A stretch of DNA of 39,016 bases from Gammaproteobacteria bacterium. Lineage in GTDB: Bacteria > Pseudomonadota > Gammaproteobacteria > S012-40. Below, one piece after another: positions 7,164-35,317 of the stretch. The DNA is taken from assembly GCA_029883265.1 (NCBI GenBank), contig JAOUJM010000019.1, positions 1 to 39,016 of the forward strand, read 5' to 3'. Position numbers and translations under genes: made by a program. Each line of letters starts with the position of its first letter. Position 1 is the stretch's first letter. The notes under the pieces are model-generated. The model searched no databases, was not told the origin of the DNA, and saw only the letters and a list, made by a program, of their open reading frames with translations.

Positions 7164-9521
7164 TTATTGAATATACTTTTCACGGATTGACAACACATCA
7201 ATACTGGAATGGCGATTGAGTAATTCTTCAAATAGGTCGGCGGGCAGCGGTTGGCTAAAATAATAGCCTTGAATCTTATTACAATTCTCATTAATAAGAA
7301 ATATAAGCTGATCCAGTGTTTCTACGCCTTCTGCCACTATTTCAAGCCCAAGGCTTTGCCCCATGTGCATGATGGCACGCACAATACTCGCATCTTCCGG
7401 GTCGGTAATAATATCTCGAATAAACGTGCGATCGATTTTTAGTGTATCAATGGGAAATTTTTTCAAATAACTTAACGATGAAAAGCCAGTACCAAAATCA
7501 TCCATTGAAATACGAATACCTAATGTACTGATCGCGTGTAATATATTAACCGCTTCCTCGGCATCCTCCATTAGTAGACTTTCGGTAATTTCTAGTTCTA
7601 AATATTTTGGATCATAAGATAATTGCTTTAATGTTTGATAAATTCGAGTAATCAGATCACCTTGACGGAATTGCCTTGCAGACAAGTTTATTGATAAGTT
7701 TAATTTAGGATAGCCTTTGTTCATCAGTCGTTTGTTATGCGCACATGCGGTTTTCAATACATAGTCGCCAATTTCACTAATCAATCCGGTTTCTTCGGCA
7801 ATATAGATAAATTGATTGGGTGCTAACAATCCTTGCTCCGGATGATTCCAACGTACCAACGCCTCCATGCCATAAATTTCCCCCGTGGCCAAATCAATTT
7901 TTGGCTGGTAATACAAGATCAATTCATTTCGTTCCACCGCTTGCCTTAACGCGGTTTCTAAAACGATTTTATTATGCAGCAAGGTGCTCATTTCGGCTGC
8001 ATAAAATTGATAAGTGGCCCCACCCTTTGACTTTGCGCGATACATAGCAGTCTCAGCATTTCGTAATAAACCTTCAACACTTTGCTCATCGAATGGATAA
8101 AATGTGACGCCGATACTGGTTTGCAAATAATATTCTTTATTCGCATAATAAATTACATTGCTAACACTAGAAATAATTCGTCTTGCAATCATTTGCACAT
8201 CACTACTATCCTGAGCTTCGTGCAAAATAATTGCGAACTCATCACCGCCTAAGCGTGCCAATAAATCGGTGGCTTCAAGTTCATTTTTAATTCTATCAGC
8301 GACTACGCGCAATAAAGCATCCCCCACTTCATGTCCCATGCTGTCATTAATATCCTTAAATCGATCCAGGTCCAAAATTATCAATGTGAATATACGCCCA
8401 GACTCATCAGAGGCATGTATGGCAGCAATTAACTCCTGACGCAAACCTGAGCGGTTAGGCAAATTAGTTAAACTATCCTGATTGGTTGCCCAATTGAGTT
8501 GTTGCTGGGTTTTTCTAAGTTCCGTCAAGTCGCGCAGAAAAGCAGTAAATATTTTCTGTCCTTCGAATTCAACATAAGACACGGCTACTTCCGCAGGAAA
8601 AACATCGCCATTACTACGCATGGCTTCTACTTCGATGCGCTGCTGCAATACGCGTTGAGATGGATATTCGGCAAATCGACTTAATAATTGTCTGTGCATA
8701 TTGCGTTTATTCTCAGGCAATAACACTTCTTCCATGCTCCGTCCCATGACTTCATCTTTCTTATAGCCAAACATACGTTCAGCCGCAGGATTAAATTCGA
8801 GAATGCAACCCTGCTCATTGGTCGAAATTATACTGTCGAGTGCTGATTGCACGATTGCGGTTTGGCGTTTTTGAGTCAATTCCACAGAATCGAGCATTGT
8901 GTTGATTATTTCAGCGACTTGCTGGAATTCATCGTTATTTTCAATTAACAAACGTGACTCAAAATCTCCACGCGCTACCTTTGTTGCAAGTTTCTTTACT
9001 GCCCGTTTATTATGTGAATTCCACAAACTAAATACAAAAAAACTAACCACGGAAGACATCATGCCAAGTAGCAAAATTCCCATTAAGCTAAACTTGGTCA
9101 CATATTTTTTTTCCATGAATGACTGATTATGATAAATGGTTTTTACGTGTATTTGCCTTTGGCTAATTTTGATTGAGCTACTGATAACATCCACATTTTC
9201 TTCTAGCTCACTATTGTCATGAGTTTGCACATATTTAGCTGATCCCAAATATGCAAGCACCTGTCCTTTTTCTCCCCATAAACTTATGGATAACACCGCA
9301 TCATTAAGTATTATATTGTTTAACCACGTTTTGGGGGCATCAGACTGATTAACATTTTTTTCTATGCGCAATAAGGTCGTGTGTTGGTGTTGGCTTCTAA
9401 ATTCCTGCCAGTCACTTTTTTCGTGTTGGCTTAACATGAAAAAACCTAACCCAATCACCAAAGTGATCAATAAAACCTGGGCAATCACGAAAACAATAAT
9501 CGATCGCTTTGAACGTAACAT
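7164..9521 (-). CDS. Membrane sensor with HAMP-PAS-GGDEF-EAL (c-di-GMP turnover)
   Basis: 785 residues from ATG 9521 (AGGTGG just upstream; a GTG at 9527 would add two residues). The order is: TM helix about 6-30, a periplasmic segment of about 110 residues, TM about 143-167, HAMP about 168-218, PAS about 219-338, GGDEF about 345-510, EAL about 515-770. The diguanylate-cyclase signature GGDEF is intact, but the inhibitory I-site RxxD is absent (EATD in its place). The EAL domain keeps EALVRW, the LEITES segment and DDFGTGFSSL, so the phosphodiesterase looks competent. Either or both activities are possible; the PAS and periplasmic regions should set the balance. The periplasmic domain is unrecognised. 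The gene is 150 bp downstream of hrpA and precedes the beta-lactamase-fold gene. Confidence 0.92.
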   Translation of the reverse strand: MLRSKRSIIVFVIAQVLLITLVIGLGFFMLSQHEKSDWQEFRSQHQHTTLLRIEKNVNQSDAPKTWLNNIILNDAVLSISLWGEKGQVLAYLGSAKYVQTHDNSELEENVDVISSSIKISQRQIHVKTIYHNQSFMEKKYVTKFSLMGILLLGMMSSVVSFFVFSLWNSHNKRAVKKLATKVARGDFESRLLIENNDEFQQVAEIINTMLDSVELTQKRQTAIVQSALDSIISTNEQGCILEFNPAAERMFGYKKDEVMGRSMEEVLLPENKRNMHRQLLSRFAEYPSQRVLQQRIEVEAMRSNGDVFPAEVAVSYVEFEGQKIFTAFLRDLTELRKTQQQLNWATNQDSLTNLPNRSGLRQELIAAIHASDESGRIFTLIILDLDRFKDINDSMGHEVGDALLRVVADRIKNELEATDLLARLGGDEFAIILHEAQDSSDVQMIARRIISSVSNVIYYANKEYYLQTSIGVTFYPFDEQSVEGLLRNAETAMYRAKSKGGATYQFYAAEMSTLLHNKIVLETALRQAVERNELILYYQPKIDLATGEIYGMEALVRWNHPEQGLLAPNQFIYIAEETGLISEIGDYVLKTACAHNKRLMNKGYPKLNLSINLSARQFRQGDLITRIYQTLKQLSYDPKYLELEITESLLMEDAEEAVNILHAISTLGIRISMDDFGTGFSSLSYLKKFPIDTLKIDRTFIRDIITDPEDASIVRAIMHMGQSLGLEIVAEGVETLDQLIFLINENCNKIQGYYFSQPLPADLFEELLNRHSSIDVLSIREKYIQ

Positions 9522-9677
9522 GGCCACCTAACGTACTTGCGCAAAATATTTAGTGAAATAGACGAGCCCAACACTGCTCTGTTTAAATCTATCGACGCCT
9601 TTGGGCTTAAGCTTGATGTAGTGTTTATTTACAAAATCTTATACTTACGAGATGCAGTCAAATAATTGAAAAGTGAA

Positions 9678-14304: not shown

Positions 14305-16422
14305 TTATGTTTTCCGATGAACAGATAAAACTGACTGAATTTGTTCCAGTCGACTCATGGCGCGAGTCAACTGATCATGATCACTTAATTCTAATGTAAT
14401 CACCATTTTTGCTTCACGTGTCCGTTTATTCGTTTGGGTATTGGCAGCCAACACATTAACATCCTCAGCCGCAACCACAGATGTGACATCGCGCAATAAA
14501 CCCGATCGATCAAGCGCATGAATTTCAACATCAATCTCGAAGCGACTATTCGTTCCACCACCCCAATCAACATCCACAATTCGCTGTGGGAAGCGGCGCT
14601 TTAAGTTCATTAAGTTTTGACAATCTAATCGATGCACAGCAATACCCCGTCCTCGCGTAATAAATCCCTTAACCTCGTCTCCTGGTAATGGCTTACAGCA
14701 GCGAGCAAGATGCGACATAAGATCATTCACACCGTTAACCGCAAATTGACTTTGTTTAGCTTTCGTCGCTCCAGTTTTGACTTTGGCAACCAAAATGCTT
14801 TCATCGTCTGTAGGTTTTGATTTGTCTAATAATTGATTCTCAACCTGATGAATACCAATTTCACCTCGCCCGATGGCTGCATACAAGTCATCTTCGCTAA
14901 AAAAATTATAGCGCTTAACCAAGGGAGCCAATTCAATTCGATCAAGATGCAAATGTTGTTGCATGGACTGAATCGCAGACTTGCCGCTATTAATATGCTC
15001 TTGCCTAAATTGTTGCTTAAACCACTGACGCACTTTCGAGCGCGCACGTGATGTTTTAAGATAACCGGATTGTGGATACAACCAGTCTCGACTGGGCGTT
15101 GCATTTTTTTGTGTAATAATTTCCACTTGCTGACCACTTTCGAGTGCGGTTTTTAGGTTGACCATATGACCGTCAACTTTAGCGCCTCGGCAGCGGTGAC
15201 CAACATTCGTGTGTACATGATAAGCAAAATCCAACGCGGTTGCGCCTCGAGGCAAACTGATGACACGTCCCTGTGGGGTCAATACATAAATACTTGCGGT
15301 TTCGGTCAGTGTTATCTTTTGTGAGGATGTGGCTTCATCTTGAATATTTTCCAGTTGATTACGATAAAGGTCCAAGGTGTTATCAAGATGCTCATCCGCA
15401 TGACTACCTTCTTTATAGCGCCAATGCGCCGCGATGCCATTTTCCGCATTATCATGCATTTCAAAGGTGCGAATTTGTACTTCCACAGTTTTGTTTTCTG
15501 GACCTAACACAGCCGTATGTAACGATTGGTAACCATTCGACTTGGGTGCGGCAATATAGTCATCATATTCCGACGCAATATAATTCCAAAGACTATGCAC
15601 TAGACCCAGCACCGCGTAACAGTCATTAATATTTTCGACTAATACACGAACCGCACGAATGTCATAGAGCTGCTCGAAACTCAGTTCTTTTTTTTGCATT
15701 TTTTTCCAAATACTATAAATGTGCTTTGGTCGGGCATAGATGTCTCCCTGGATATGATCCAAGGCCAATTTTTCTTTGAGTTGTGCGGCAAATGCCAGCA
15801 CATACGTTTCTCGATCAATTCGCTTTTCTTCGAGGGCTTTTGCAATTTTTTTATATTCAGCGGGATGACTAAAGCGAAGCGCCAAGTCTTCAATTTCCCA
15901 TTTGAGCTGCCCCAAGCCTAATCGATTCGCGATCGGGGCAAAAAAATTGAAACTTTGCCAAGCTAGTTCTTGTTGCACGGTTTCTGTTTGCTGTTTGTTC
16001 ATATTTAAAACGGCTAAATGCTTCGCTAGTACCACAAATACTACCCGCAAATCTTTCACTAAAGACAAAAACATCATTGGTTTTTGCGCAACATCGGTTT
16101 CAGCATCTGCAGGGGTGGGCATCCATAGTTGAGATTTTTGCTGTAATTGTTCAAGTTCAGCACTTAATTCGAGCCCTTGTGAGCCACAGGACTTCTGAAC
16201 ATCCCCACCGAGCTCAACAGCTAAATCTCGTGAAAGCCAAAGCGCTGTTACAATATAAGCCTCTGCACCCAGGGCGTATTCCGCCAATAAAGCAAACGCA
16301 GGCTCCAACACATTGGTGGCTTCGGCTTGAGTAAATGCACTATTTAAGGCATCTATGCACTGCTGTTGCTGTGTGTCGAATGTTTGCTGTACGGATTCAA
16401 ACGATTTAATATTTCGCTTCAT
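14305..16422 (-). CDS. relA: (p)ppGpp synthetase RelA
   Basis: 705 residues. The N-terminal region (about 1-200) keeps the RelA/SpoT helical fold but lacks the HD hydrolase metal motif, so the enzyme should not degrade (p)ppGpp. The synthetase domain (about 225-345) has the EYDD acidic signature at 285-288 characteristic of monofunctional RelA (SpoT/Rel types have RxKD), followed by PKSNGYQSLHT and VEVQIRT. A TGS domain lies about 380-440 (TPQGRVISLPRGATALDFAY), then a helical and zinc-finger-like region with CCKPLPGDE, and a C-terminal ACT domain with DRSGLLRDV. It is the ribosome-associated stringent factor that senses uncharged tRNA. It is the first gene of a relA-mazG-hrpA run. A TAAAAT box sits only 6 nt before the ATG, but without a good -35. 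Confidence 0.95.
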   Translation of the reverse strand: MKRNIKSFESVQQTFDTQQQQCIDALNSAFTQAEATNVLEPAFALLAEYALGAEAYIVTALWLSRDLAVELGGDVQKSCGSQGLELSAELEQLQQKSQLWMPTPADAETDVAQKPMMFLSLVKDLRVVFVVLAKHLAVLNMNKQQTETVQQELAWQSFNFFAPIANRLGLGQLKWEIEDLALRFSHPAEYKKIAKALEEKRIDRETYVLAFAAQLKEKLALDHIQGDIYARPKHIYSIWKKMQKKELSFEQLYDIRAVRVLVENINDCYAVLGLVHSLWNYIASEYDDYIAAPKSNGYQSLHTAVLGPENKTVEVQIRTFEMHDNAENGIAAHWRYKEGSHADEHLDNTLDLYRNQLENIQDEATSSQKITLTETASIYVLTPQGRVISLPRGATALDFAYHVHTNVGHRCRGAKVDGHMVNLKTALESGQQVEIITQKNATPSRDWLYPQSGYLKTSRARSKVRQWFKQQFRQEHINSGKSAIQSMQQHLHLDRIELAPLVKRYNFFSEDDLYAAIGRGEIGIHQVENQLLDKSKPTDDESILVAKVKTGATKAKQSQFAVNGVNDLMSHLARCCKPLPGDEVKGFITRGRGIAVHRLDCQNLMNLKRRFPQRIVDVDWGGGTNSRFEIDVEIHALDRSGLLRDVTSVVAAEDVNVLAANTQTNKRTREAKMVITLELSDHDQLTRAMSRLEQIQSVLSVHRKT

Positions 16423-16478: not shown

Positions 16479-17510
16479 TTATTTAAGGCTAAATTTCTTT
16501 AAACAATCAGAATTAACTACAACACGGTTTCGTCCCATGTGTTTGGCTTCATATAGTGCAGAATCTGCTGATGCAATTAAGTCATCAACACTGGCACGTG
16601 CGTCATAGGGCTCACAACAGGCCACACCGACGCTGATTGTGACTCGATCAGCAATTGAGGAAAACTCATGTGTTAAATTCAAGGCTTCTATATGTACACG
16701 TAATTTTTCTGCAACCATTTCCGCGCCATCAATGAAGGTTTCAGGTAAAACCAATACAAACTCTTCACCACCATAACGTGCCAATAAATCCGCCGGTCGC
16801 CGATGACCTGCCGACAAATTTTTTGCTACTGTAATTAAACACTCATCGCCTTTTTGATGACCATAATTATCGTTATAAACCTTAAATTGGTCGATATCGA
16901 TCAGAATCAAGAAGAGAATTGATTTTTTTCGAATCGCCCGAGCCCATTCGGTTTTTACAAATTCATTGAAGCGTCGACGATTCGCAATACCCGTCAAACC
17001 ATCCATGCTTGATAAGCGTTTTAGTTCCGCATTACTTTCTTCTAGTTTGACTTGCAACTCCCTAAGTTTTCGATAAGCCTCGTCGCGTTCAAACTGTGCC
17101 AGGTAGCTACGGGAATGTGCTTTAATACGCGCAATCATTTCTATTTTATCCGGTAACTTGACCAAATAGTCAGTGGCACCAACCGAGAAGGATAAACTTT
17201 TGTCGATGGGATCTTCCTTCGTTGACAAAATAATAATTGGCACTGATTTAGTCACCGGATTCTCGCGTAATATCTGAGTAAGACTGACACCATCAATCTC
17301 AGGCATCATCAAGTCCTGAAGAATAACCGTCGGTCTAACTGCTTCCGCGACATCTAAGGCTTGTGCAGGATTTTGGCAGTAATGAAATTCTATCTCGGTT
17401 TCATCGGCCAACATGCGACGAACTTTTTCCGCCACAATGATCTGATCATCGATCAATAATACAACAAATGATTCATTTTTTTTTGACAAACTTTGTTTAG
17501 ATTTGCACAT
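16479..17510 (-). CDS. wspR: Response regulator diguanylate cyclase (REC-GGDEF, WspR-like)
   Basis: 343 residues. The receiver domain (about 14-130) has the acidic pair D21-D22, phospho-acceptor D66 in LQDLMMP, and K118. A predicted coiled coil (about 138-165) leads into the GGDEF domain. The catalytic motif is GGEEF at 247-251, and an intact inhibitory I-site R238-P-A-D241 precedes it. This is exactly the architecture of Pseudomonas WspR, in which phosphorylation drives oligomerisation and c-di-GMP synthesis. The gene closes the chemosensory operon, 16 nt after the CheA-type kinase, which is its likely phosphodonor. ATG 17510 has only a weak ribosome-binding site. The wsp name rests on architecture and neighbours rather than on a sequence search. 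Confidence 0.92.
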   Translation of the reverse strand: MCKSKQSLSKKNESFVVLLIDDQIIVAEKVRRMLADETEIEFHYCQNPAQALDVAEAVRPTVILQDLMMPEIDGVSLTQILRENPVTKSVPIIILSTKEDPIDKSLSFSVGATDYLVKLPDKIEMIARIKAHSRSYLAQFERDEAYRKLRELQVKLEESNAELKRLSSMDGLTGIANRRRFNEFVKTEWARAIRKKSILFLILIDIDQFKVYNDNYGHQKGDECLITVAKNLSAGHRRPADLLARYGGEEFVLVLPETFIDGAEMVAEKLRVHIEALNLTHEFSSIADRVTISVGVACCEPYDARASVDDLIASADSALYEAKHMGRNRVVVNSDCLKKFSLK

Positions 17511-17526
17511 CTAAATACATCTCATA

Positions 17527-19776
17527 TTAACGCTTCAATTGCTGACGATTATGCAAAAAGGATTTAATTGCATCTAATTTTTGCAATAACGCGGTTTTTG
17601 AAAACATAGCCTTTGGTAATATTTGCACGTTTGAATTCTGCTCCCGAATGGTTTTCAGTTTCTTTAGTGGATGATCAGAGACAATTAACACTGGCAAATC
17701 ATTACCAGCAACGGATTGCCTCAGATGTCGCAATAAGCTGACAGCATCGAGTTTAGGTAAATCTAGATCAGTAATCAATAAGTCAAATCCCGAGTCAGTA
17801 ATTTTTTGCAACGCGGCTTCGCCATCCGTTGCAAATTCCACGACATGTCCATGGCTTCGCAATAATTTTGCTTGCACTTCACGCGCAGTCAATGATGCAT
17901 CAGCAATCAGTATGTTAAGCACACGATTGTCCGTCTGAACATCAACAAACCAATTGTTGTCAAGCATGTCCATCGACTTGAATTTTTGAAATTCGGTTTT
18001 TAAACTTTGCACATCCAATAATAAAATCACTTCGCCGTGTTCATTAACCGATACGCCATTAACTAAATCCAGTTGTGATATAAATTTTGTAGCCTGTTGC
18101 AACAACAATTCTTCTTCTACAATAACTTGATCGACTACCATACCCAACATGCCATTATCTGTGTCCAATAACACGATGCTATAGCTTTTGACAGCGTCCG
18201 CACATACTAATTTTTCTAGTATTTGATTAATGTGAATCAGAGGCACTGGTGTTTGATGGTAAATTACGTAAAACGTTCCCGACTCTTCGTGTATTTCTTT
18301 TCGACTTGCTTTTAACACATGAATCAGCTTCGCGACAGGCAAACCGTACAATTCTCCACCAGCAGAAACAACTAATGATTTTAAAAGTGAACGATTTAAA
18401 GGCAATAAAATTTGAATCGTCATTCCCTTACCCAAGGCCGTTGTCGCATGTACGGTACCACCAAAACTTTTTATGACCTCATGCACAATATCCAATCCAT
18501 AGCCACGACCAGAAAATTTGGATGCCTCACTTCTTGTACTAAATCCTGGAGTGAAAATATAATCTAGCACTTGCATATCATCTAATTCATCAAGTTCACC
18601 CAAGCGTTGCAAACCTTTAAGCGCAATGGTTTGCTTCAATTGGTGCAGATCAATGCCCTGACCATCATCCTGAATATTAATAAACAACATGCCTGCAACC
18701 ACTTTGGCGTGTAGTGAAATGTTTCCATATTCAGCTTTAGTGGCAGCCATACGCTGCTTCGGAGACTCGATACCATGATCGATAGCATTTAAAACAATGT
18801 GCTCTAACGGCGCCACCAATGCATCAAGCATGTCTCTGTCAACAAGCACATCGACACCTGTTAGGGACAAATCGACTGACTTTCCAAGTTTTTTAGACGC
18901 ATCTCTCACCATCCGCGGAAAATCCCGCAACGCTTCAGCCAAGGGACGGGTGCGTGTGAGTAATAGATTTTTCTGTAATGTTTTTGTTAGCAGCGACAAT
19001 TTGTATTCGTGCAAATTGTATCGATCAATACCATCACTGATGTCGTTTTTTAATTCGCCAAGCATTTGACCTAAATGCTTTATTGGCTCCACATAATGTC
19101 TACCTAATGAGGAATTTTGCATATGCCGGTAGATATCTAATAGATTATTGTCTAACTGATAAAGTTTTTGCCGCGTGCGATTAAAAAAACTGGCTAAAGT
19201 CTCGAAGCGCCTCGCTTCGATGACAGCATCATCAGCGGCTTGTATAATTGTATTTAGTATATTTTTCTTAATTCGAATATAGTGTTCCTGACCAGACGTT
19301 GCTGGCTTGCCACTGATTTGTGGCTGATGCGTTACCGGCTTCAACATCCTCGACGGCACTTGTTGCAATAGCGCACTCAATGTTGCAATATATTGCTCGA
19401 CAATCAGTTTTACAGTTTCAGCCCATTCAGCCACATCTTTTTCTGCAATATCTTTGAGATTCTTCAATAGATCAATCATTTGCCAGAGAATGGCGAATAG
19501 GGGATCACTGGCCAAGTGTTTATTATTCAGCAAGGCAACAAAACTTTCTTCTAGCCAGTGCGCGATTGTCACTACAACATCCAATTCAATCATGCGTGCG
19601 GCGCCTTTGATGGCATGGGCTGCACGCATTAACTCATTCAGCAATACTTCATCCAATGCATTTTTTTCTACTTTCACCACCACGGATTCTATCAAATCAA
19701 GCTGACCTTCTAGCTCTAAATGGAAAAGTTCATGCATGGACAATGATTGCAAGTCATCAAGGTTTTTTGAATTCAT
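17527..19776 (-). CDS. wspE: CheA-type hybrid histidine kinase with C-terminal receiver (WspE-like)
   Basis: 749 residues. An Hpt domain with phospho-histidine H54 in AAHAIKGAAR is followed by a linker (about 135-170) and a dimerisation helical pair. The HATPase domain has an N-box (HIVLNAIDHGIES, 326-338), a G1 box (DDGQGID, 370-376) and G2 (GRGYGLDIV). A CheW-like domain covers about 465-600 and a receiver about 620-745. Receiver residues are D626 (acidic site), D670 (phospho-acceptor in LITDLDLP), S700 and K722. There is no obvious P2 domain. The order Hpt-HATPase-CheW-REC is that of WspE, which phosphorylates WspR. The start ATG overlaps the stop of the CheW gene (ATGA, 19776-19773). The terminal receiver may act as a phosphate sink. 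Confidence 0.92.
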   Translation of the reverse strand: MNSKNLDDLQSLSMHELFHLELEGQLDLIESVVVKVEKNALDEVLLNELMRAAHAIKGAARMIELDVVVTIAHWLEESFVALLNNKHLASDPLFAILWQMIDLLKNLKDIAEKDVAEWAETVKLIVEQYIATLSALLQQVPSRMLKPVTHQPQISGKPATSGQEHYIRIKKNILNTIIQAADDAVIEARRFETLASFFNRTRQKLYQLDNNLLDIYRHMQNSSLGRHYVEPIKHLGQMLGELKNDISDGIDRYNLHEYKLSLLTKTLQKNLLLTRTRPLAEALRDFPRMVRDASKKLGKSVDLSLTGVDVLVDRDMLDALVAPLEHIVLNAIDHGIESPKQRMAATKAEYGNISLHAKVVAGMLFINIQDDGQGIDLHQLKQTIALKGLQRLGELDELDDMQVLDYIFTPGFSTRSEASKFSGRGYGLDIVHEVIKSFGGTVHATTALGKGMTIQILLPLNRSLLKSLVVSAGGELYGLPVAKLIHVLKASRKEIHEESGTFYVIYHQTPVPLIHINQILEKLVCADAVKSYSIVLLDTDNGMLGMVVDQVIVEEELLLQQATKFISQLDLVNGVSVNEHGEVILLLDVQSLKTEFQKFKSMDMLDNNWFVDVQTDNRVLNILIADASLTAREVQAKLLRSHGHVVEFATDGEAALQKITDSGFDLLITDLDLPKLDAVSLLRHLRQSVAGNDLPVLIVSDHPLKKLKTIREQNSNVQILPKAMFSKTALLQKLDAIKSFLHNRQQLKR

Positions 19777-20423
19777 ACAAACACCTTTTGAAGCCGGGTG
19801 CGTAAAAATTCCATATTTAGCAAATAGACTTTTTGATTGGAAAAATTCACCGCCTGAGAAGTCAGCCGATGCTCGGGCAAATATTCGTTGGTCAATGCGA
19901 TATAGTCGTCCACGCTACAGGCCTGCAAACCTAAAAAACGGGTAATCGGCAACGCAACTTCCATTTGTGGTTGTAGCCGCAAAATGATTACTTCTCGCAA
20001 CGATTCACTTCCACCTTCAGTTGGCATTTCCATTACAAAGCTTACATCCAAGCCATACACTAAACGTCCCTCGACATAGGCAATACCTTTGATTAGTTCA
20101 TTCTGAAATTTTGGCAATGAATGCAATTTTGGTTTGTGCGCAACCGCAACAATGCATTCTGTCGGTACCAAATAGTTTCGATTAAATAAACCGAGCATAG
20201 CCACCGCAAACCGTTGTGTCGGGCTTGTATCTTCTTCTATGCTTGAGGACAGACAAAACGCTTGAGTATTATTACGCTGCCCGAAAAATCTGTTGGCAAT
20301 TTCCTTTAACACATGACAGTCACTACAATGACCGACCAGCGCCAAGCGTTCACATTGTGGTTCGGTTTCACTCCAAACGCCAATTTCACGCCAGCAGGGG
20401 TCGATTTTCACATCGGCATTCAT
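19773..20423 (-). CDS. wspD: CheW-family adaptor with N-terminal cysteine motif (WspD-like)
   Basis: 216 residues. A CheW-like domain (about 65-216) should bridge receptor and kinase in the array. The first 50 residues are an extension with PCWREIGVW and cysteines C10, C24, C33 and C36, the last pair in GHCSDCH. A cysteine-containing N-terminal extension opening with a CWxxIGV-like segment is a feature I associate with WspD, not with ordinary CheW. There is no signal peptide or membrane helix, so the protein is cytoplasmic and the CxxCH is not expected to receive haem c; a metal or disulfide site is more plausible. It overlaps both neighbours by ATGA (20423-20420 and 19776-19773), implying translational coupling. 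No second CheW (WspB) gene is present. Confidence 0.85.
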
Positions 20424-22423
20424 GTCGAGCGATCGCTTTGGCGTCTGCCATTCACACGAAAGCGCGCAATACTTTGCTGCAATTCACTTTCGGCATCACT
20501 GAGAAAATGCAATGCCCGACTTGAACTTTGCAATTGAGTAACGGTTTCTTGAGCACTATTATTCAACAAGGTAATTGCATCAGTGATTTTGTTTGCTCCC
20601 ATGGATTGTTCACGAGTCACTTGATGCACAGTTTCTATTTTTGGTGCAATCGTTTCCACTTTATCAATAATCAACGCTTGTTGCTGACTAACGCCTTGAA
20701 CTTGGGACACAATCGCTTGCACTTGGCTACTAAACGTCAACATACTCGCAACCGAGTCGGTGACGGACTGTTGCATTTCAACAATTATTTGCTCAATATC
20801 CAGAGTTGACACCGCCGTCTGATCGGCTAAACGTCGAATCTCGCCAGCAACTACACCGAATCCGCGACCATACTCACCAGCTTTTTCTGCTTCGATCGAC
20901 GCATTAAGTGAAAGCAAATTGGTTTGGTCTGCAATTTTACCGATTAAGGTGACGACAGAATTAATGTTGCTTGCTTTGTCACGCAAGATATTTAATTTAA
21001 ACGTAATATTTTCAACCGCGTCTCCAACATCTGTCATTAACTCTTCCAAGCCTGCGAGACCGCTATGACTAGTTTGCGCGGATTTTGCTGCTTCTTCAGT
21101 AACACGGGACAAGCTATCCATAGTTGTCAACAACTCGCGACTTTTATTTGAAATATTTAATGCATTACTGGCGATTTGATTGGTGTTGTTGGCCTGTGTT
21201 ACCGCATTGGATTCTACTTGACGAATACTGGTCTGAATTTCATTGGTCGCATTTCCCACTTTCAACATACTCAATTGAATTTGCACCACCAAGTCGTTGA
21301 GACTATCCGTCATGGCTTGTACACCCACTGCCAGTTGCGCAATGGCATCATCACCTTGAATCAATATTCCCTGAGTCAAATCGCCATGAGACACTTGCGT
21401 AACCAAGGATAATATCTTATCCACTTTTTGCTTCAGTTCTTCCACCGTCTGTTTTTTCTCGTCGATAGATATGCGAATATAATCAATCATGATTTGCAGA
21501 CTTCCAGCAAGTTCACCAATGCTATCATCGCCAGAGAAGCTGATCTTAGTATGAAAATCGCCGTCGGTGACTCGATTCACTACGGTCAACAACTCATCTA
21601 CTTTTTGCTGTAAATCAGCCGCATTTGCCAGTTCCCGTTGAATACTTGCATCAACATTATCCGCCATAATATTGAACCCATCGGCTAACTTGCCTAATTC
21701 ATCGGGATTATGGATGTCGGCGCGTGCGCTGATATTACCTTGGGCACGTAAGTTCACTACTCGCATAAGCGAATCGATGGGTTTCACTACCCACTTGGTA
21801 ATTAACAAATTGATAAGAATCAAACCGAGAAAAGAAAAAAATAAATTACTGACGATATTAAAAATAACTTCTTTTTTTAAACCATCATCATATCTTTGTA
21901 AGGAATAACTAACACGAATGGCACCATTAACCGCTCCGGGAGTAACGTTATGACATTCTAAACAGTTTACGCCGCGTGTATTATCGGTAGCGCGAAACGG
22001 CGTAAGTACGGTCAGCACCCGACCTTTGGAATTTCGCTCTACCAGAATAATTGATTCACCTTGCAGTGCTTTATGATCCCATTCATCCACTGCAGCCTCT
22101 TCGGTTAAGCCGGGACCATATTGTTGCGTCACCGGTTGTCCACGAATAACTCTTGCTTGAGTGACATTCGAACGTGCTAATAATTTTTTGCGTAAAATAC
22201 CACGATCTTTCATAGTTCCCGTCAGCATCATGGTATTCAAACTATCAAAATACCACGTCGTTAAATCGGTCACTTGTTCTTTCGCCAATTCCATCATGGC
22301 TTCTTGTTCGTGCTTTAAATGCATTGCAGTCACCACACAGACCACAATTATAAAAATGGCTGCAATCGTTAGATTGAGTTTAATGCGGATAGATAATGAA
22401 TTGATAAAACTTGGCTTTTCCAT
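20420..22423 (-). CDS. Methyl-accepting chemoreceptor with periplasmic haem-c motif and three HAMP modules
   Basis: 667 residues from ATG 22423; a GTG at 22459 would add 12. The order is TM about 17-36, a periplasmic sensor domain of about 150 residues, TM about 187-209, HAMP modules about 209-260, 273-323 and 333-383, then the signalling hairpin whose tip has [19 protein letters not shown] and [13 protein letters not shown]. Near the end of the periplasmic part lies C154-LE-C157-H158, a covalent haem-c attachment motif. The layout resembles haem-c PAS-like or DUF3365-type sensors, as reported for some Geobacter chemoreceptors. Ligand or redox state of the haem is thus the likely signal. It lacks a C-terminal CheR-tethering pentapeptide. 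It heads the four-gene operon and is the presumed input to the WspE-like kinase. The position matches wspA, but haem sensing is unlike Pseudomonas WspA. Confidence 0.9.
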
Positions 22424-22512
22424 CTGCGTAAAGCGGCTCCATGCAATCGCCTCGGGCACTTGGAGTTCATCGGCAGATGGTTAAAAAAATAAAGTAATTC
22501 GCTGAATTTATT

Positions 22513-22544
22513 CGAGTAAAACCCGTCGCTATGGGTGTTACTCG
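22513..22544 (-). terminator. Intercistronic hairpin, possible weak terminator
   Basis: Arms CGAGTAAAACCC (22513-22524) and GGGTGTTACTCG (22533-22544) pair over 12 positions with one mismatch and an 8-nt loop. The hairpin includes the stop codon of the Ig-like lipoprotein gene. On the minus strand an AT stretch follows, with a T-run about 20 nt further on rather than immediately. It may attenuate read-through into the chemosensory operon or protect the 3' end of the upstream mRNA. Confidence 0.5.
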
Positions 22545-25500
22545 ATTTCTTCGGTCACATGAATGGTGTAACGTGAACCACCTTGGCGTGCGGTATCGAG
22601 AAATGAATTATCATTGGTTTTATGCGCATATACATTAATCGAGTAGTGATTATCACTTAAGTTACGATCACCATAGCGAACCACACATTCAATACTCTGA
22701 GAGTCCAGATTGCTTTGCTGGGGCTCCGGACATGGCACTTTGGTTCCTGTATCGTCGGGACCTGATTTAATTACTTCCAAATACACTGAACCAGTAACAT
22801 TGCTCAAACGAATATGATGATGATTCACTACTGAAACACTCGATCCATAGGTAACCACGTAGCTACTCATGGATACACCCTCTATTCCACGGTTTTGTAC
22901 CGTACCTAGATGGGTCTGATTCATGTTAAGCGGAATGTTTTGTTCATTGCTGTATTGATGCTCAGCCATTGGTGTGTGTTCAATGCTCAAACGCACATGC
23001 GGCCGGTTTATTCGCAAGTCTCGTGATTCAGACTCGGCTAACAAACCTAGATAAAGTTCTTGAGCTTGATCTAGGCGTAACACGCACGCAAGTGTCGTTG
23101 CCGGATTTTGTCCAATGCCGACGCAAAAATCACTCGGACCTACACCACCACTCGTACCCCAAGCACGATTCGCCGTAAACAAACTAAGTTGGAAGCCATG
23201 ATTATTTGCACGATCCACTTTAAATGCATTCATGCTAGTTATCTGATTGACTTCGCCCAAGCATTCATCGGGACTAACAATATAAACACAATCAACCACG
23301 ACCCGTAATGCTTTATTCGGTGCAATCAAACCCATGTTAGAAACATCACGAAACCAATGAGGGGTCGAAACATTATACTCACCGGGAATAGCCGCGCTCA
23401 TTATAAAGGGCGCGCTATCAACTGCACCACCGATTAAAGGTGTTGCTCCGCGAATCACGGTTGGCTCACTGACACCGCTAACATCAACAAATATACTTGC
23501 TGATAACGCTTGAATATTGCAACTTAAATCCTGACTATCTATATTCATGCCGCTGGCTACGCATAAACGCTGAGTGAAATCCCAGTCAGCAGCCACTTTT
23601 AATTGATCACCCGACGTGAATGCTTTGCCATCCTTGGGGTGCAAACGAATATTGTACATTTGCCCAGGCACTGCGCCGAAGACATAATATTTTGCGTGAC
23701 TTTGACCTTGATCACTCCAATCAGCGACCGGCACCTCAAGACCGGAAGTTGCTAAGTCGATGTCGCCGATTTTAGGCAAAACATAAACATTGGCGACGTC
23801 TTCCACAGTCGTAATAAAAGTGTCATTAGCTAAGGTCCATTGCGCCGAAATTTCGGCTTCCGCTTTTGTTAACAAATCATTGGCGCTGACCTCACACTGG
23901 CCTTTCACCGCTGAAACAGTCATAGCGTCATTGGCTAATACTGTGAGTGGTTCATGGGAAATCAATGTGAGATTACACACAAGATTGCTCGAATCTGGTT
24001 CAATATCGCTGATAAAACCACCACTATTACCGCCGGACAATTTAGTGTCTACATCAAGCGCACCCGTCTCACCGGGACCTAACCCAAACTGGCTTGGTGA
24101 CATGCGTAATCCAACAATATTACGAAACTCAAAACTAACACTAGAGGTGGTTATAGTGGATGTATCATAAGCCGTGGCTTGTAACTGGATATTGACCCGG
24201 TCATTTGCATCAGCGATAACATCGGTTTTGTTTAATAACATTATTTCATAAGCCAATGTTTGATCAGTCCACTGCAACTGGAGTCCCGGCATAGCCGTAG
24301 CAAATGTTGCGTCAATATTGATTGTTAATGGTTCCCAGCCTGAGGGAGTATTGGTATTGGTGTAACGCACTTCAACACTGAGCTGAAATTTTTCTTTGAT
24401 ACCCGGCGTCATCCAATATTCGGACGGGCTTGGACGCAAGCGCAAAGATTTTAATCCAGGAGGATCAATAAATAAGGATTCCAGCACTTGTTTGTCCGCA
24501 TAAGCGGCTTTAATATTGACGGCTCCAGGCTGTATTGATTCAAACTGCATAATATTCGAACTACTATTGCCACTAGGCATGCTAACAATCCGCCCCTGAC
24601 CTTCACCATCAGTACTCTCCACTGACCAGTCAAGGAAATCATTTAAAATCACTTCTTCATTTTTTTCAGGACCATAAACGCCGATGGCCTGAACTGAAAA
24701 ACCCAAACCGGCAGTCACGTTGGCGGGAATCGTCTGACCGTTATTGCTTCCATCGGTGTAAAGTTGAATACGAATTTCATCGGGTTTACCAGGAATGGAT
24801 TTGATAACAAAACTGCTGGTGATATTGCCTAGTGAATAATTGACTTGAGATTGCTGTCCATTGCCGCTTAATGAGGTGAGCCGTACTGCTTCACTCAGAC
24901 TTATGGAAACCACGGATGGATTGGCCACTTGCCAATGTTCAAGGGCTAAAGCTTCACCTTCAATGACACGCGCACCGTTACTGTAATTACCCACCAAACC
25001 TAACTCGAAAAACTCATTGCGTGGTAATTTAATCTCCAGACCGGTCATCACAGCCCCATCCGCTTGATTAATCACATCTATTGATACTAACACCGGTGGC
25101 AAAATGCTGATTTTGATCGGTTCGATAGGCGGCATATCATCGCTTAATGGCGCCATCAGCATAAACGTTTCACCGACGGTAAAACTACTCACCAATCCCG
25201 GTGCTTCAGCGCCACCGGTAATATCGGCAATCAGTGTATCTTCGATCGCGAACTGGTATTGCTGTGTCACAAATTCAAAATTACCATCGCTATAATCTGC
25301 ACGTACTTGAAAGTGACGATCAAAACCTAAGGGCCATTCAAAACCGCCGCCACCCGTGGCGACGACACTGACTCCACTCAAAACTGCTTGATTAATTTTA
25401 ACAGTTGCATCAGCGCTTTTAATCGTTTTGCCATCACGGTAGCTAAACCGCAATGTTGTTTCACCGTCATTATCACCACGCGAAACCGAACGCAATTGCA

Positions 25501-25840
25501 AATCGTCACTGACACTGTTGACAGGAATACTGCTATTGACTTCGAACATGCAAGTCGAGCCATCACAACCGGGTTGCTGTGACCAAGTCGCGTCTTGAGA
25601 AATATTAAACGAGGAACCGTCGACATAATAAGCGGTGACCATAAAACCCACAGTGCTACCTAATGGAATTTCCACATGATCGGGCGTTACTTCAATTTTG
25701 AGGAGATCAGCAAGAGGTTCAGGCTCAGGGTCTTGAGTGTTGGTGCAACTGAGTATTGGGCTCAACATCCATATGATCATTAACAAGCGCAGGCTTGCCG
25801 TAATCACAGGCCAATCTGAACAAGTCCTATAATTTCTCAT
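22538..25840 (-). CDS. Large Ig-like-domain lipoprotein
   Basis: 1100 residues. The signal segment ends in PILSC, making C32 the lipidated residue, followed by an acidic proline linker (DPEPEP). The next ~650 residues are bacterial Ig-like (Big_2-like) modules, recognisable by IEVTPDHVEIPLGSTVGFMV and later segments such as VSIDVINQ and LRLRPSPSEYWMTPG. The last ~350 residues differ and hold paired cysteines typical of an exported, disulfide-bonded domain (for example CVYIVSPDEC). An SD-like GGAAGAG precedes ATG 25840. It is transcribed away from the small lipoprotein gene at 26022 and toward the chemosensory operon. The family is not recognised beyond the Ig modules; a surface-exposed adhesive or structural role is inferred. 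Confidence 0.8.
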   Translation of the reverse strand: MRNYRTCSDWPVITASLRLLMIIWMLSPILSCTNTQDPEPEPLADLLKIEVTPDHVEIPLGSTVGFMVTAYYVDGSSFNISQDATWSQQPGCDGSTCMFEVNSSIPVNSVSDDLQLRSVSRGDNDGETTLRFSYRDGKTIKSADATVKINQAVLSGVSVVATGGGGFEWPLGFDRHFQVRADYSDGNFEFVTQQYQFAIEDTLIADITGGAEAPGLVSSFTVGETFMLMAPLSDDMPPIEPIKISILPPVLVSIDVINQADGAVMTGLEIKLPRNEFFELGLVGNYSNGARVIEGEALALEHWQVANPSVVSISLSEAVRLTSLSGNGQQSQVNYSLGNITSSFVIKSIPGKPDEIRIQLYTDGSNNGQTIPANVTAGLGFSVQAIGVYGPEKNEEVILNDFLDWSVESTDGEGQGRIVSMPSGNSSSNIMQFESIQPGAVNIKAAYADKQVLESLFIDPPGLKSLRLRPSPSEYWMTPGIKEKFQLSVEVRYTNTNTPSGWEPLTINIDATFATAMPGLQLQWTDQTLAYEIMLLNKTDVIADANDRVNIQLQATAYDTSTITTSSVSFEFRNIVGLRMSPSQFGLGPGETGALDVDTKLSGGNSGGFISDIEPDSSNLVCNLTLISHEPLTVLANDAMTVSAVKGQCEVSANDLLTKAEAEISAQWTLANDTFITTVEDVANVYVLPKIGDIDLATSGLEVPVADWSDQGQSHAKYYVFGAVPGQMYNIRLHPKDGKAFTSGDQLKVAADWDFTQRLCVASGMNIDSQDLSCNIQALSASIFVDVSGVSEPTVIRGATPLIGGAVDSAPFIMSAAIPGEYNVSTPHWFRDVSNMGLIAPNKALRVVVDCVYIVSPDECLGEVNQITSMNAFKVDRANNHGFQLSLFTANRAWGTSGGVGPSDFCVGIGQNPATTLACVLRLDQAQELYLGLLAESESRDLRINRPHVRLSIEHTPMAEHQYSNEQNIPLNMNQTHLGTVQNRGIEGVSMSSYVVTYGSSVSVVNHHHIRLSNVTGSVYLEVIKSGPDDTGTKVPCPEPQQSNLDSQSIECVVRYGDRNLSDNHYSINVYAHKTNDNSFLDTARQGGSRYTIHVTEEIE

Positions 25841-26460: not shown

Positions 26461-29400
26461 TTGTATTTAGTCGCAGCTATTTTCCTAATTTTTTCCGGCA
26501 TTGCTGCACTCACCTACCAAGTTACTTGGGTTCGATTGCTAGGGCTGAGCATGGGCTCTACCAGTGCTTCGATTAGCACTGTGCTAGCAGCATTTTTCAT
26601 GGGCATGGCCTTGGGTAGCTTTATGGCTGAGCGCATGACGCGTAACCGCATTCATAGTTTTCGCCTTTATATCGCTTTAGAAATAATTATCGCGCTTAGT
26701 GGATTGGCACTATTGCCCATTTTGTTAAATTTGCCCGAGCTACTAGCGTCATCACCCGCGTTAGGTCAACACCTGGGTTATAAGTTTTTTACAGCTATGG
26801 CTTTACTCGCGATTCCCACTATTTGCATGGGTGCCACATTCCCAGTCATGGCGTCGATTCTGGTTCGTAAAGAAAATGAAGTGGGTTTGCGAATTAGCCA
26901 GCTCTATAGTCTAAATACGTTTGGCGCAGTTCTCGGTGCTTTGTTTGCCGGATTTTGGTTTATCCCCAGCGTGGGCCTTGATGGCGCCATTTATATTGCC
27001 GTGGCATTAAATCTTTTCGTTGCTACATTGGCCATGCTTTTCAATCGGCGCATTAGTTTACCGCCACTTGAAACCGAACTGAGCACGCCCTATAACCCAA
27101 CCGAAAAGGCCTTACTCGGCACGCCCGAGCATCGCACCCTTGCCCTAATCGTTTTATTCGTTACTGGCTTCGCCAGTATCGCCACAGAAGTGGCTTGGAC
27201 CAAATATTTATCCATATTCACCGGCACTACCATTTATGGATTTGCCGCCATTCTCGGAATATTTCTTATCGGTATCGCTGCGGGTTCCTGGGCAATTAAA
27301 AACCGACTCGAAAGCATACAGCATCCCGCCCGCTGGTTGGCCTATGGTTTATTGCTTGTTGGTCTATTGCTAATACTAACGCGCGCCGGACTTAATATGG
27401 TGCCTGCAATTTACGAAGGAATAAACCACTTGGGCGGTCCTGGTTGGATTAAACAGTGGCTGAAATACTTTTTAGTTTTTATTTTATTATTCCCAGCGAC
27501 GTTTGTTTTTGGCGCACTGTTTCCCATTAACTTAAAACTTTATTGTGGTGATTTACATGGCGTGCGCACACGTGTAGGAAAAGCCTATGCGATAAACACA
27601 TTAGCCGCCATCGCTGGCTCAATCACTGCGGGTTTTTGGCTAATCCCACAATATGGCACCAATACTTTGCTCAATCTGATGGCCGGATTAGTCATACTAA
27701 CGCCTGTTTTATTTTTATTTCGTTCACAAGCCTTAATTCGCATCAAACCACTTGCGGCGAGTTTGTTATTTCTTGCTTTATTGCATTGGTTAATTCCCAA
27801 TCTAGACTACCAACGTTTAATTACCTCAGTTGGCTACAAATTTGATGTAGATGTGTTATCCGGCAAAGCGCCTAATTATTTATTTCTCAAAGAAGGTAAA
27901 GTGAGCGTCATCAGTTTAGTGACCTATGATGAACGCTACGCCAAAGTGCAAGCCAATGGATTGAATGAATCCATTATCGATATGCAAAACCCGAACAATG
28001 CCTTAGTCGTCGAATCATTATTAGCCTATATGCCTTATTTCTTACACCCTAAGCCAGAATCTGCATTTGTTGTTGGCTATGGTGGCGGCATAACCACTCG
28101 AGCCTTGACTCATACCAATTTAGCATCGATTCGTGTTGTTGAGCTAGAGGAAGCCGTGATAGAAGCCAGTCGTGTTATAGAGAATGGACCTGCGTTAGCG
28201 CTAAATGATCCTCGAGTCAATTTACAAATCAATGACGCCCGTAATACCTTGCTCGTCGAGGATAATCAGTATGACATTATTGCAGCACAAGCATCACACC
28301 CATGGCTTGCCGGTGCTTCAAATGTATTTACTCAAGAGTTTTTCCAACTGGTGCATTCGCGTTTAAACGATGATGGTATTTATTCACAATGGGTGAATCT
28401 ATTTCGCATGGACGTAACAACCTTACGATCATTACTCAAAGCATTTTACAATGTCTTTCCTCACGGCTTAACTATGGCGAATCTTGAGCAAGGTGATTTT
28501 TTAATGATTGGCTCCAAGCAAGCACTGAGCTTGAACTATGAGCAAATTGCTCAGCGTATGCAAGCACCTGCGATTAAACCCGTATTGGATCGTTTCCTCA
28601 TTAACAAACCGCGAGACCTGCTGTGGTTTTTTGCCTTGTCGCGTGATGAAGCAGTTGCGGCTGCTGGCGATGCAACCGCGAATCGCGACACTAATATTCT
28701 TTCTGAAGTTCGCTTATCAAAAATTATTGATAACCCGGTTGGTGATGAAAATCCTTATTTATACCTGCAATCTCAGTTTCAATTTGATCTTGTTGGCTAT
28801 CTAGAACCACAACAAGCCAAACAACAATTATGGGAAGCTGCAGAATTTTATTTATATTGGAACACACCCGTTACCGCAGAAAAAATTATCATTCAATTAA
28901 AAAAAATCGACCCAGACTGGGGCGAAGCTTTGCTACATCATTATCTTGCCTGGCAACTCAATTATGAAGCCGCCACTGAATTATATCTATCGCGTAATCA
29001 TTGGTTGGACCAAGCACATATTCAACAAATGCAAATCTATCTCGAACAAGAACAAACCGAGAATGCTCAAAAAAGTCTAGCACGAATCCAAGAAACTCAA
29101 GTACGCCAACAAGCACAGGCAATGCTAGCGTATTACACGGGCGCCAACAGCAAGCTCCAAGTCATCGAGCAACAAACACAATGGTTAGCGCTATTGGCTT
29201 CACGTGAAAATATAAAACAAGCTAGATTTGATTCGGCTTATTATCAAGACATGTTAAACCACGATGTACATACGCTACGCAGCTTGATTGAATATAGCAG
29301 TGCGAATAATCAATTGGCTGAATTTAACCAGTGGACCAACGCATTAAACAATTTATACGAGCAACAAGCTGAGCGTTATAAAAGCTTGGCCGATACCGCA

Positions 29401-29550
29401 CTGACGCAAGAGCAGATCAGTTGGGCGCAACGTTTAATTCAACAGCTCGAATTGATCAATCCAAAGCTTGATGGATTATATTTTTTAAAACAACGACTGC
29501 ACAAACAGTTGGCTAAGAATAACCAGGCCCTGGCAGCAAAGGGCATCTAA
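26461..29550 (+). CDS. Membrane-fused spermidine-synthase-like protein with helical C-terminal domain
   Basis: 1029 residues. Residues 1 to about 460 contain a dozen or more hydrophobic helices in two halves, as in 'fused MFS/spermidine synthase' proteins (opening FSGIAALTYQVTW). A Rossmann methyltransferase-like domain follows at about 480-700, with VVGYGGG near 535 and VVELEEAVIEAS. The catalytic-loop region reads AQASHPWLAG, so the aspartate of true aminopropyltransferases is absent and polyamine synthesis is doubtful. The last ~230 residues are glutamine-rich helical, TPR-like in appearance. The start is TTG at 26461, strongly supported by GGGGAGGTAACAT directly upstream. pgl follows 36 nt behind. 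The function is not established; transport or modification of a small substrate is conceivable. Confidence 0.8.
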   Translation: MYLVAAIFLIFSGIAALTYQVTWVRLLGLSMGSTSASISTVLAAFFMGMALGSFMAERMTRNRIHSFRLYIALEIIIALSGLALLPILLNLPELLASSPALGQHLGYKFFTAMALLAIPTICMGATFPVMASILVRKENEVGLRISQLYSLNTFGAVLGALFAGFWFIPSVGLDGAIYIAVALNLFVATLAMLFNRRISLPPLETELSTPYNPTEKALLGTPEHRTLALIVLFVTGFASIATEVAWTKYLSIFTGTTIYGFAAILGIFLIGIAAGSWAIKNRLESIQHPARWLAYGLLLVGLLLILTRAGLNMVPAIYEGINHLGGPGWIKQWLKYFLVFILLFPATFVFGALFPINLKLYCGDLHGVRTRVGKAYAINTLAAIAGSITAGFWLIPQYGTNTLLNLMAGLVILTPVLFLFRSQALIRIKPLAASLLFLALLHWLIPNLDYQRLITSVGYKFDVDVLSGKAPNYLFLKEGKVSVISLVTYDERYAKVQANGLNESIIDMQNPNNALVVESLLAYMPYFLHPKPESAFVVGYGGGITTRALTHTNLASIRVVELEEAVIEASRVIENGPALALNDPRVNLQINDARNTLLVEDNQYDIIAAQASHPWLAGASNVFTQEFFQLVHSRLNDDGIYSQWVNLFRMDVTTLRSLLKAFYNVFPHGLTMANLEQGDFLMIGSKQALSLNYEQIAQRMQAPAIKPVLDRFLINKPRDLLWFFALSRDEAVAAAGDATANRDTNILSEVRLSKIIDNPVGDENPYLYLQSQFQFDLVGYLEPQQAKQQLWEAAEFYLYWNTPVTAEKIIIQLKKIDPDWGEALLHHYLAWQLNYEAATELYLSRNHWLDQAHIQQMQIYLEQEQTENAQKSLARIQETQVRQQAQAMLAYYTGANSKLQVIEQQTQWLALLASRENIKQARFDSAYYQDMLNHDVHTLRSLIEYSSANNQLAEFNQWTNALNNLYEQQAERYKSLADTALTQEQISWAQRLIQQLELINPKLDGLYFLKQRLHKQLAKNNQALAAKGI

Positions 29551-33718: not shown

Positions 33719-35317
33719 ATGGTAACAAACGATGAATTGCTGGCTCGAGTTGAAGAGCTGAACGCGATCGGCATTTCCTTATCCGCGGAACAAAACCGCG
33801 AGAAAATGCTGGAGCGTATTCTTATTGGCGCAAAAAAAATCACCAATGCCGATGGGGGAACACTTTACCTGGTTAAAGATAATCACTTGCATTTTGAAAT
33901 TATGCGCACCGCATCCTTAAACATAACAAAAGGTGGTACCACGGGTGAAGCTATTACCTTAAAACCTGTGCAACTTTATAATGAAAACCAAGTGCCTAAT
34001 ACCTCGTCAGTTGCAACGTTTGCTGCTATTAGCGGACTCACGGTTAATATTGCCGATGCCTATGATCATACCGGCGAATTCGATTTTTCCGGCACCAAGG
34101 CATACGATGAACAAACCGGCTATCATTCCAAATCTTTTCTAACAGTACCCATGAAAAATCATGAAAACCAAATCATAGGCGTACTGCAATTAATCAATGC
34201 GTTGGACCGAACTAGCAATGAAGTGATAAGTTTCAGTATGGAGGATCAGCAACTCGTCGAATCATTAGCCTCGCAAGCAGCCATCACATTAACCAATCAA
34301 TTACTCATTAGCGAATTACGCACACTCATTGAAAAATTCGTCGAAGTTATTGCTTTCACCATCGACGAAAAATCACCTTATACCGGTGGTCATTGCCGTC
34401 GTGTACCGGATATTGCCATGCGCATCGCTGAAGGTGTGAATGATTGTAATCATGGCCCACTAGCTGAGGTAAACTTCAGCGAAGAAGACCTTTATGAGCT
34501 AAAAATTGCAGCGTTATTGCACGACTGCGGCAAAATCACTACACCAGTGCATGTGGTCGACAAGTCCAGTAAGCTTGAAACCATTTACGACCGTATCGAA
34601 AATGTGCAGTTACGTTTTGAGCTAATTCGTAAAGAACGCGAACTTGCGCTATTAAAAATGCAAATCGCCGAGCAATCTGAATTCAAACCCAATGATCACG
34701 CGCAAAAACTCTATAAAGAAATGATGCAAAAACTGGATGGCGACCAAGAATTTTTAGCTCAAATGAATAAAGGCGCGGAATTTATGGAGGATGCCCATAA
34801 AGCACGGGTTCATGAAATTGGCTCCTATAGTTACCAACTACATACAGGTGAACATCGACCATTGCTCAATGCTGATGAAATTGAAAACCTGTGTGTTAAT
34901 CGTGGCACTTTGAATGACAAAGAACGCGAACTCATTAACAACCATGTTGTCACCAGTATTAATATGTTGGCGCAGCTACCCTTCCCTCGTTATTTACGAA
35001 ACGTACCAGAAATCGCAGGTTCTCATCACGAACATATGGACGGCAGTGGTTACCCACGCGGACTTACCGGTGAGCAAATGTCGGTACAAGCACGGATTAT
35101 GTGTATTGCAGATATTTTTGAAGCTTTAACCGCATCAGATCGTCCGTATAAAGTAGGAATGAAATTATCGATTGCCATGAAGATCATGCAGGATATGGTC
35201 GCATCCGGTCATCTTGATCCTGATTTATTCACTATGTTTGTCGAGCAAGGCATATTTTTGGAATATGCCAAACACAATCTAAAACCGGAACAAATAGACC
35301 AAAGAAAAGTTTCTTAA
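33719..35317 (+). CDS. GAF-HD-GYP c-di-GMP phosphodiesterase
   Basis: 532 residues, cytoplasmic, no membrane helix. A GAF domain (about 10-195) has the pattern NADGGTLYLV and FLTVPMKNHENQIIGVLQL. The HD-GYP domain follows with its metal ligands intact: H225 in GGHCRR, H268-D269 in LLHDCGK, H409, H436-H437 in HHEHMDGSGYP (GYP 444-446) and D465. It should hydrolyse c-di-GMP to GMP or pGpG. Between HD and GYP there is an extra helical, highly charged block of about 100 residues (about 281-392), longer than in most HD-GYP domains. GGAAGA precedes the ATG. It is monocistronic as far as can be seen. The GAF ligand is unknown. Confidence 0.92.
   Translation: MVTNDELLARVEELNAIGISLSAEQNREKMLERILIGAKKITNADGGTLYLVKDNHLHFEIMRTASLNITKGGTTGEAITLKPVQLYNENQVPNTSSVATFAAISGLTVNIADAYDHTGEFDFSGTKAYDEQTGYHSKSFLTVPMKNHENQIIGVLQLINALDRTSNEVISFSMEDQQLVESLASQAAITLTNQLLISELRTLIEKFVEVIAFTIDEKSPYTGGHCRRVPDIAMRIAEGVNDCNHGPLAEVNFSEEDLYELKIAALLHDCGKITTPVHVVDKSSKLETIYDRIENVQLRFELIRKERELALLKMQIAEQSEFKPNDHAQKLYKEMMQKLDGDQEFLAQMNKGAEFMEDAHKARVHEIGSYSYQLHTGEHRPLLNADEIENLCVNRGTLNDKERELINNHVVTSINMLAQLPFPRYLRNVPEIAGSHHEHMDGSGYPRGLTGEQMSVQARIMCIADIFEALTASDRPYKVGMKLSIAMKIMQDMVASGHLDPDLFTMFVEQGIFLEYAKHNLKPEQIDQRKVS

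Follow-up and report, generated by a model that had tools for sequence, protein, structure and literature searches.

The window analysed here, a stretch of 39,016 nucleotides spanning positions 1 to 39,016 of contig JAOUJM010000019.1 of a gammaproteobacterial genome assembly, carries a close-packed run of minus-strand genes which opens with a chemoreceptor and continues with genes for a CheW-like protein, a CheA and a receiver-GGDEF protein, followed by relA, mazG and a DEAH helicase. The relevant features are:

20420..22459, minus strand: wspA-type chemoreceptor with a putative haem c (open reading frame; 679 aa from GTG, 667 aa from the ATG at 22423)
21866..22324, minus strand: predicted periplasmic haem-c Cache sensor domain (AlphaFold2 model, fold match to 3b42, profile alignment with GSU0582)
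22226..22228, minus strand: Met66, the probable distal axial haem ligand (invariance and alignment with 3b47)
21950..21964, minus strand: CLECH, putative haem-c attachment motif, C154/C157/H158 (conserved in homologues; H158 is the expected proximal ligand)
21653..21805, minus strand: first HAMP domain (Pfam PF00672, which matches two stretches of the receptor)
20564..21025, minus strand: MCP signalling domain (Pfam PF00015, 8.3e-34)
19773..20423, minus strand: wspD-type CheW protein with a conserved CW...IGVW...C...HCxxC motif (PF01584, alignment A1, motif across loci)
17527..19776, minus strand: wspE-type CheA with Hpt, HATPase_c, CheW and receiver domains (Pfam)
16479..17510, minus strand: WspR-type response regulator diguanylate cyclase (3bre match; GGEEF and RxxD I-site intact)

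Residues are numbered from the ATG at 22423, as in the initial annotation, and the corresponding numbers in the 679-aa frame are higher by 12; the start codon of the receptor is uncertain by these 12 residues (GTG or ATG), which affects nothing else. A Pfam scan of the receptor returned the two HAMP stretches and MCPsignal without any named sensor domain. In the AlphaFold2 model the C154-LE-C157-H158 motif lies between the two membrane helices, ahead of HAMP and MCPsignal, as had been read from the sequence, and the neighbours implied by that reading (CheW-like, CheA-REC and REC-GGDEF genes) were recovered by Pfam.

The structure predicted for the sensor from 38 sequences (mean pLDDT 91.4, pTM 0.82) places the CxxCH, which is residues 145-149 of the model (C145-H149), on a short helix with strand 3 of the predicted fold (125-135) before it and strand 4 (156-165) after it; a CxxCH on a short helix between strands is a structural mark of haem-c Cache domains (PMC12889525). 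The fold matches the Geobacter haem-c sensors, the best PDB match being 3b42, the haem-c sensor GSU0935 (E 4.1e-5), followed by the Cache sensors of WalK, CitA and DcuS. TM-scores to GSU0935 were modest (0.51 by target), probably due to the domain-swapped dimer in the GSU0935 crystal. By sequence profile the best PDB match over the whole domain was 3b47, GSU0582, with an E-value of 0.087 that is weak alone, and the match to GSU0582 was stronger by hhalign (E 4.5e-7), at a sequence identity to GSU0582/GSU0935 of a low 17-21%. In the alignment with GSU0582, Met66 falls on residue 26 of the 3b47 chain, which corresponds to Met60 because the histidine of the CxxCH is residue 109 of that chain and is called His143 in the literature. 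The window sensor thus shares an aligned CxxCH and Met60 with the two proteins that match it best by profile and fold, and differs from them in its output, as the available portion of the literature on GSU0582/GSU0935 describes no WspR diguanylate cyclase for the pair.

A comparison with the DUF3365/Tll0287-like family (PF11845, termed sCache_heme; Deshpande et al. 2026 preprint, PMC12889525) had also been proposed, and was borne out in part. The extracytoplasmic Cache fold, the CxxCH between strands and the fusion to MCP modules are shared. However, the sensor scores below the Pfam cut-off (E 0.071), a PF11845 search of its own genome gave no matches, and the Pfam model matches five of the 38 relatives, weakly (best E 3.9e-4). 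Set by profile against PF11845 proteins from the class, the sensor aligned over no more than 52 columns surrounding the motif, and it is without the longer segment which follows the CxxCH in those proteins. PF11845 was rejected as the family of the sensor on account of the cut-off and the 52-column alignment, the GSU0582/GSU0935 type being nearer. Falling below the cut-off, the sensor therefore belongs to a divergent branch which would escape a Pfam-based survey. Judged by sequence and model, the receptor is almost certainly a haem-c Cache receptor ("sCache_heme"), as a divergent relative and not a Pfam member. The words Wsp and methionine are absent from the main text of the preprint (PMC12889525).

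The conservation of the motif in orthologues was followed in three sets. The first search, with the 150-aa sensor against 144 genomes of the window's family and class, gave matches in 28 of them, and the CxxCH was kept in every aligned homologue at identities of 24-68% over the domain. Met66, within MMLTG or its equivalent, was invariant in all 34 rows of this set including the window, as were Pro142, Gly105 and Gly167. All five features are likewise 100% conserved in 38 of 38 wspA-type receptors; these were chosen as wspA-type reading frames with a CxxCH, so that the motif is a selection criterion there, while Met66, invariant as well, played no part in the choice. The real test of CxxCH conservation is provided by the unselected first-search and phylum-wide sets. 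Across the phylum, 91 of 398 genomes gave matches to the sensor, for the most part on non-wspA receptors, and the CxxCH is present in 29 of 30 aligned segments; the sole exception is a partial segment from a locus whose other segment carries the motif. On these alignments the conservation of the CxxCH is far beyond what chance would be expected to give. In contigs of named genomes scanned with the whole receptor, distant MCPs only were found, and an Aeromonas caviae record contains a relative of the receptor at a place which bears no annotation.

The window's own genome also carries the genes by which a haem could be attached, in a contiguous run of ccmA, ccmB, ccmC, ccmE, ccmF, ccmG, ccmH and ccmI, with ccmA recognised as an ABC ATPase in the right place and ccmG as a redoxin. 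Across the 39 genomes with a haem-type wspA, CcmE was found in 37; the two that gave no CcmE are G092 (99% complete) and G045 (86% complete), and close relatives of G092 do have it. An unconserved motif or an absent maturation system had been named in the initial annotation as grounds for abandoning the haem, and neither came true.

The genes downstream of the receptor are of the WspD, WspE and WspR types, which supports the earlier reading that a haem-c-type receptor here takes the place of WspA in a c-di-GMP pathway. In the PDB the window's WspR is matched best by 3bre, the WspR of P. aeruginosa (E 2.6e-104), in an alignment that runs colinear from residue 14 to 331, with both the catalytic GGEEF and the inhibitory RxxD intact by motif check, and the CheA has the C-terminal receiver expected in a Wsp system (Pfam). 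The WspR type and the domain order of WspE are those of the Pseudomonas Wsp system (wspABCDEFR), and the gene order is the same in complete relatives. The WspD-type protein has the N-terminal CW..IGVW..C..HCxxC in nearly all operons examined, haem or not, and these cysteines might form a metal or redox site. A CSDCH within 19773-20423, weighed as a further place for haem, was discarded, as the family is cytoplasmic, its cysteines belong to the WspD motif and its histidine is not conserved.

In contrast to Pseudomonas Wsp, the window holds only A, D, E and R of the set. No wspB, wspC or wspF was found in the window (gene content by Pfam), nor an orthologue of any of them elsewhere in its own genome. 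Three genes for CheR and three for CheB were found there; the CheR frames, at 280-288 aa, leave no room for the TPR that WspC has at its C-terminus, the full-length CheBs share 28-33% identity with WspF references which among themselves reach 40-65%, and no CheR or CheB is as near to the WspC/WspF references as these are to each other. Two relatives of the same family (L038, L042) have kept wspF. As the seven genes wspA-wspF and wspR are not all present, the window is Wsp-like and reduced, and of the Wsp system initially read here the WspR-type output and the WspE-type CheA stand whilst completeness does not. The window receptor has also lost several Glu/Gln residues that are conserved in 80-100% of receptors from beyond its family, for example to T, N and S at positions 421, 435 and 449 of the 679-aa numbering. 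The loss of adaptation enzymes and the erosion of likely methylation sites fit together, and the window version probably reports its signal without dedicated adaptation. In the tree of WspD, WspE and WspR the window sits on a long end branch of 2.72 changes per column, and on so fast-evolving a branch signalling could have drifted or function been lost, even though both WspR motifs are intact.

In relatives, the same receptor opens an operon of receptor, CheW, CheR, CheW, CheA-REC, CheB and WspR, the wspABCDEFR order, and the wspA of the full operons is homologous to the window receptor across its entire length. The distribution was sampled with a WspD profile over 370 genomes of the class, the clusters around the matches being read; GTDB's class Gammaproteobacteria may include former betaproteobacteria. 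A haem-type wspA was found in 32 of 51 scorable operons, a ratio which may be biased upward since the profile was built from haem-type operons, and in one more that is split between contigs (L048/L109); 19 clusters have a wspA without CxxCH, and nine are cut before wspA or otherwise unscorable. L109 was rejected as a non-haem receptor, being a contig-edge fragment that probably belongs to one gene with the haem part found in L048. When WspD, WspE and WspR were placed in a tree with the receptor left out, the haem label needed one haem/non-haem change, and a WspE-only tree under a simpler model needed three; shuffled labels needed far more (means of 15 to 21 for single groups). The trees are quick searches without bootstrap. 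With so few label changes the haem-type sensor would therefore be an inherited feature of a large lineage and not the product of recent shuffling. A haem-c-type receptor as wspA, noted at first as a combination not seen described, is widespread and no oddity of this genome. What is new here is that such receptors serve as wspA in complete wspABCDEFR operons of many families within the class, largely as one lineage.

Taking these observations together, we consider it probable that the locus encodes a haem-c Cache receptor whose Met66 is switched by redox state or NO and which drives a WspE-type kinase, and through it the production of c-di-GMP by WspR. The receptor would be a homodimer with one covalent haem c per periplasmic Cache domain, attached by the Ccm system to Cys154 and Cys157, with His158 as the proximal ligand and Met66 as an exchangeable distal ligand. 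A change in the redox state of the haem, or the displacement of Met66 by NO, would alter the N-terminal helix, which in the model is continuous with the first membrane helix; the HAMP domains would relay the change to the signalling tip, which together with the WspD-type adaptor would set the activity of the WspE-type kinase, and this kinase would phosphorylate WspR to give c-di-GMP, through which biofilm formation may be affected. Relatives with the full set of genes would have WspC and WspF to reset the receptor through methylation. A precedent is found in Geobacter, where a review describes Met60 of GSU0935 as the distal ligand of one crystal haem, binding the reduced haem and being displaced by NO or CO, and favours a redox-linked switch for the GSU0582/GSU0935 pair (PMC8396549).

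The nature of the signal had been left between oxygen, nitric oxide and redox state, and by analogy redox or NO now seems likelier than oxygen. An oxygen sensor, in which O2 would bind the ferrous haem directly and so set c-di-GMP, has a parallel in the Desulfovibrio haem-c receptor DcrA, described in the same review as sensing redox potential and oxygen (PMC8396549). However, a signalling-type sCache_heme protein binds NO tightly, forms no stable O2 complex and autoxidises (PMC12889525), and an invariant distal methionine should disfavour O2, which makes this reading unlikely; given the missing O2 complex of the relative and the redox-linked Geobacter pair, oxygen is the least likely of the three signals. 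It is also conceivable, though quite unlikely, that the haem merely stabilises the domain and that surface contact or membrane state is sensed via the helices, as has been suggested for P. aeruginosa WspA, chimeras of which with other sensor domains are still surface-responsive (PMC8846402). Against this, the sensor is highly conserved and its distal methionine invariant across many families, largely in one lineage, which suggests more than a structural part.

In several families (L055, L056 and L156-L184) this haem-type sensor is also frequent among receptors whose reading frames are shorter, in one case (L056) as two sensors in tandem genes; these receptors are mostly about 530-600 aa long and the wspA-type ones mostly about 650-690 aa. 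Where the neighbours of the shorter frame were read (L055, L056), no wsp operon lies beside it, as might be expected if the window held an ordinary chemotaxis receptor adjoining wsp-like genes by chance, yet the longer wspA-type receptors are homologous over their full length and are the first operon gene in dozens of genomes, and a chance neighbourhood is very improbable. Equally hard to sustain is a motif without haem, serving as a metal site, a disulphide or a relic: PF11845 is indeed unmatched at its cut-off, but the histidine is as invariant as both cysteines, in the predicted fold the motif has the position that it takes in haem-c sensors, and the genome carries the ccm genes.

With a redox- or NO-switched haem-c receptor as the preferred reading, we lean towards a wider proposal in which an old and widespread branch of Wsp uses a haem-c receptor, so that the input in a large part of Wsp bacteria would be periplasmic redox state or NO, instead of or besides surface contact, and in which the window's family then lost methylation adaptation. 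The signal of WspA was called still a mystery in a 2022 review (PMC8846402), and a probable covalent haem with an invariant, probably switchable methionine ligand offers a specific hypothesis for the Wsp input, namely redox state or NO. The sensor of Pseudomonas WspA is a 4HB_MCP_1 domain (PMC8846402), whereas many relatives have the haem-type sensor. A survey of 794 wsp operons found Pseudomonas to be the only gammaproteobacterial genus with Wsp, singled out the WspA sensor as the part that varies most, and nowhere uses the word heme (PMC8552884); the operons described here extend the range of Wsp beyond that lone genus. In a study of Wsp from iron-oxidising Zetaproteobacteria, CxxCH is mentioned for cytochromes only and not for WspA, and a literature search, with most subscription papers outside its scope, found no paper linking haem and WspA. 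The Geobacter Esn network of electrode sensing is likewise an MCP-CheW-CheA-diguanylate cyclase pathway, but EsnA is without a putative periplasmic domain and the Esn genes are scattered (PMC5585712).

Scans for consensus promoters and terminators gave no more matches than were obtained in shuffles. Directly upstream of the receptor, on the same strand, 22538-25840 encodes a protein of 1100 aa whose start resembles a signal peptide and for which Pfam gave no match. At 26461-29550 lies the gene of a 1029-aa protein in which a spermidine-synthase domain is fused to a membrane part of multiple helices that matches MFS weakly. The window is rich in c-di-GMP genes, with a PilZ protein at 4717-5145, a PAS-GGDEF-EAL protein at 7164-9527 and, in the same c-di-GMP-rich region, a GAF-HD protein with an HD-GYP-like motif at 33719-35317. 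The ppGpp synthetase gene relA (14305-16422) follows wspR after about 56 bases, and the order wspR-relA-mazG-helicase is common to the window and one genome of the same family (L043); given this shared order, two second messengers may therefore be co-transcribed.
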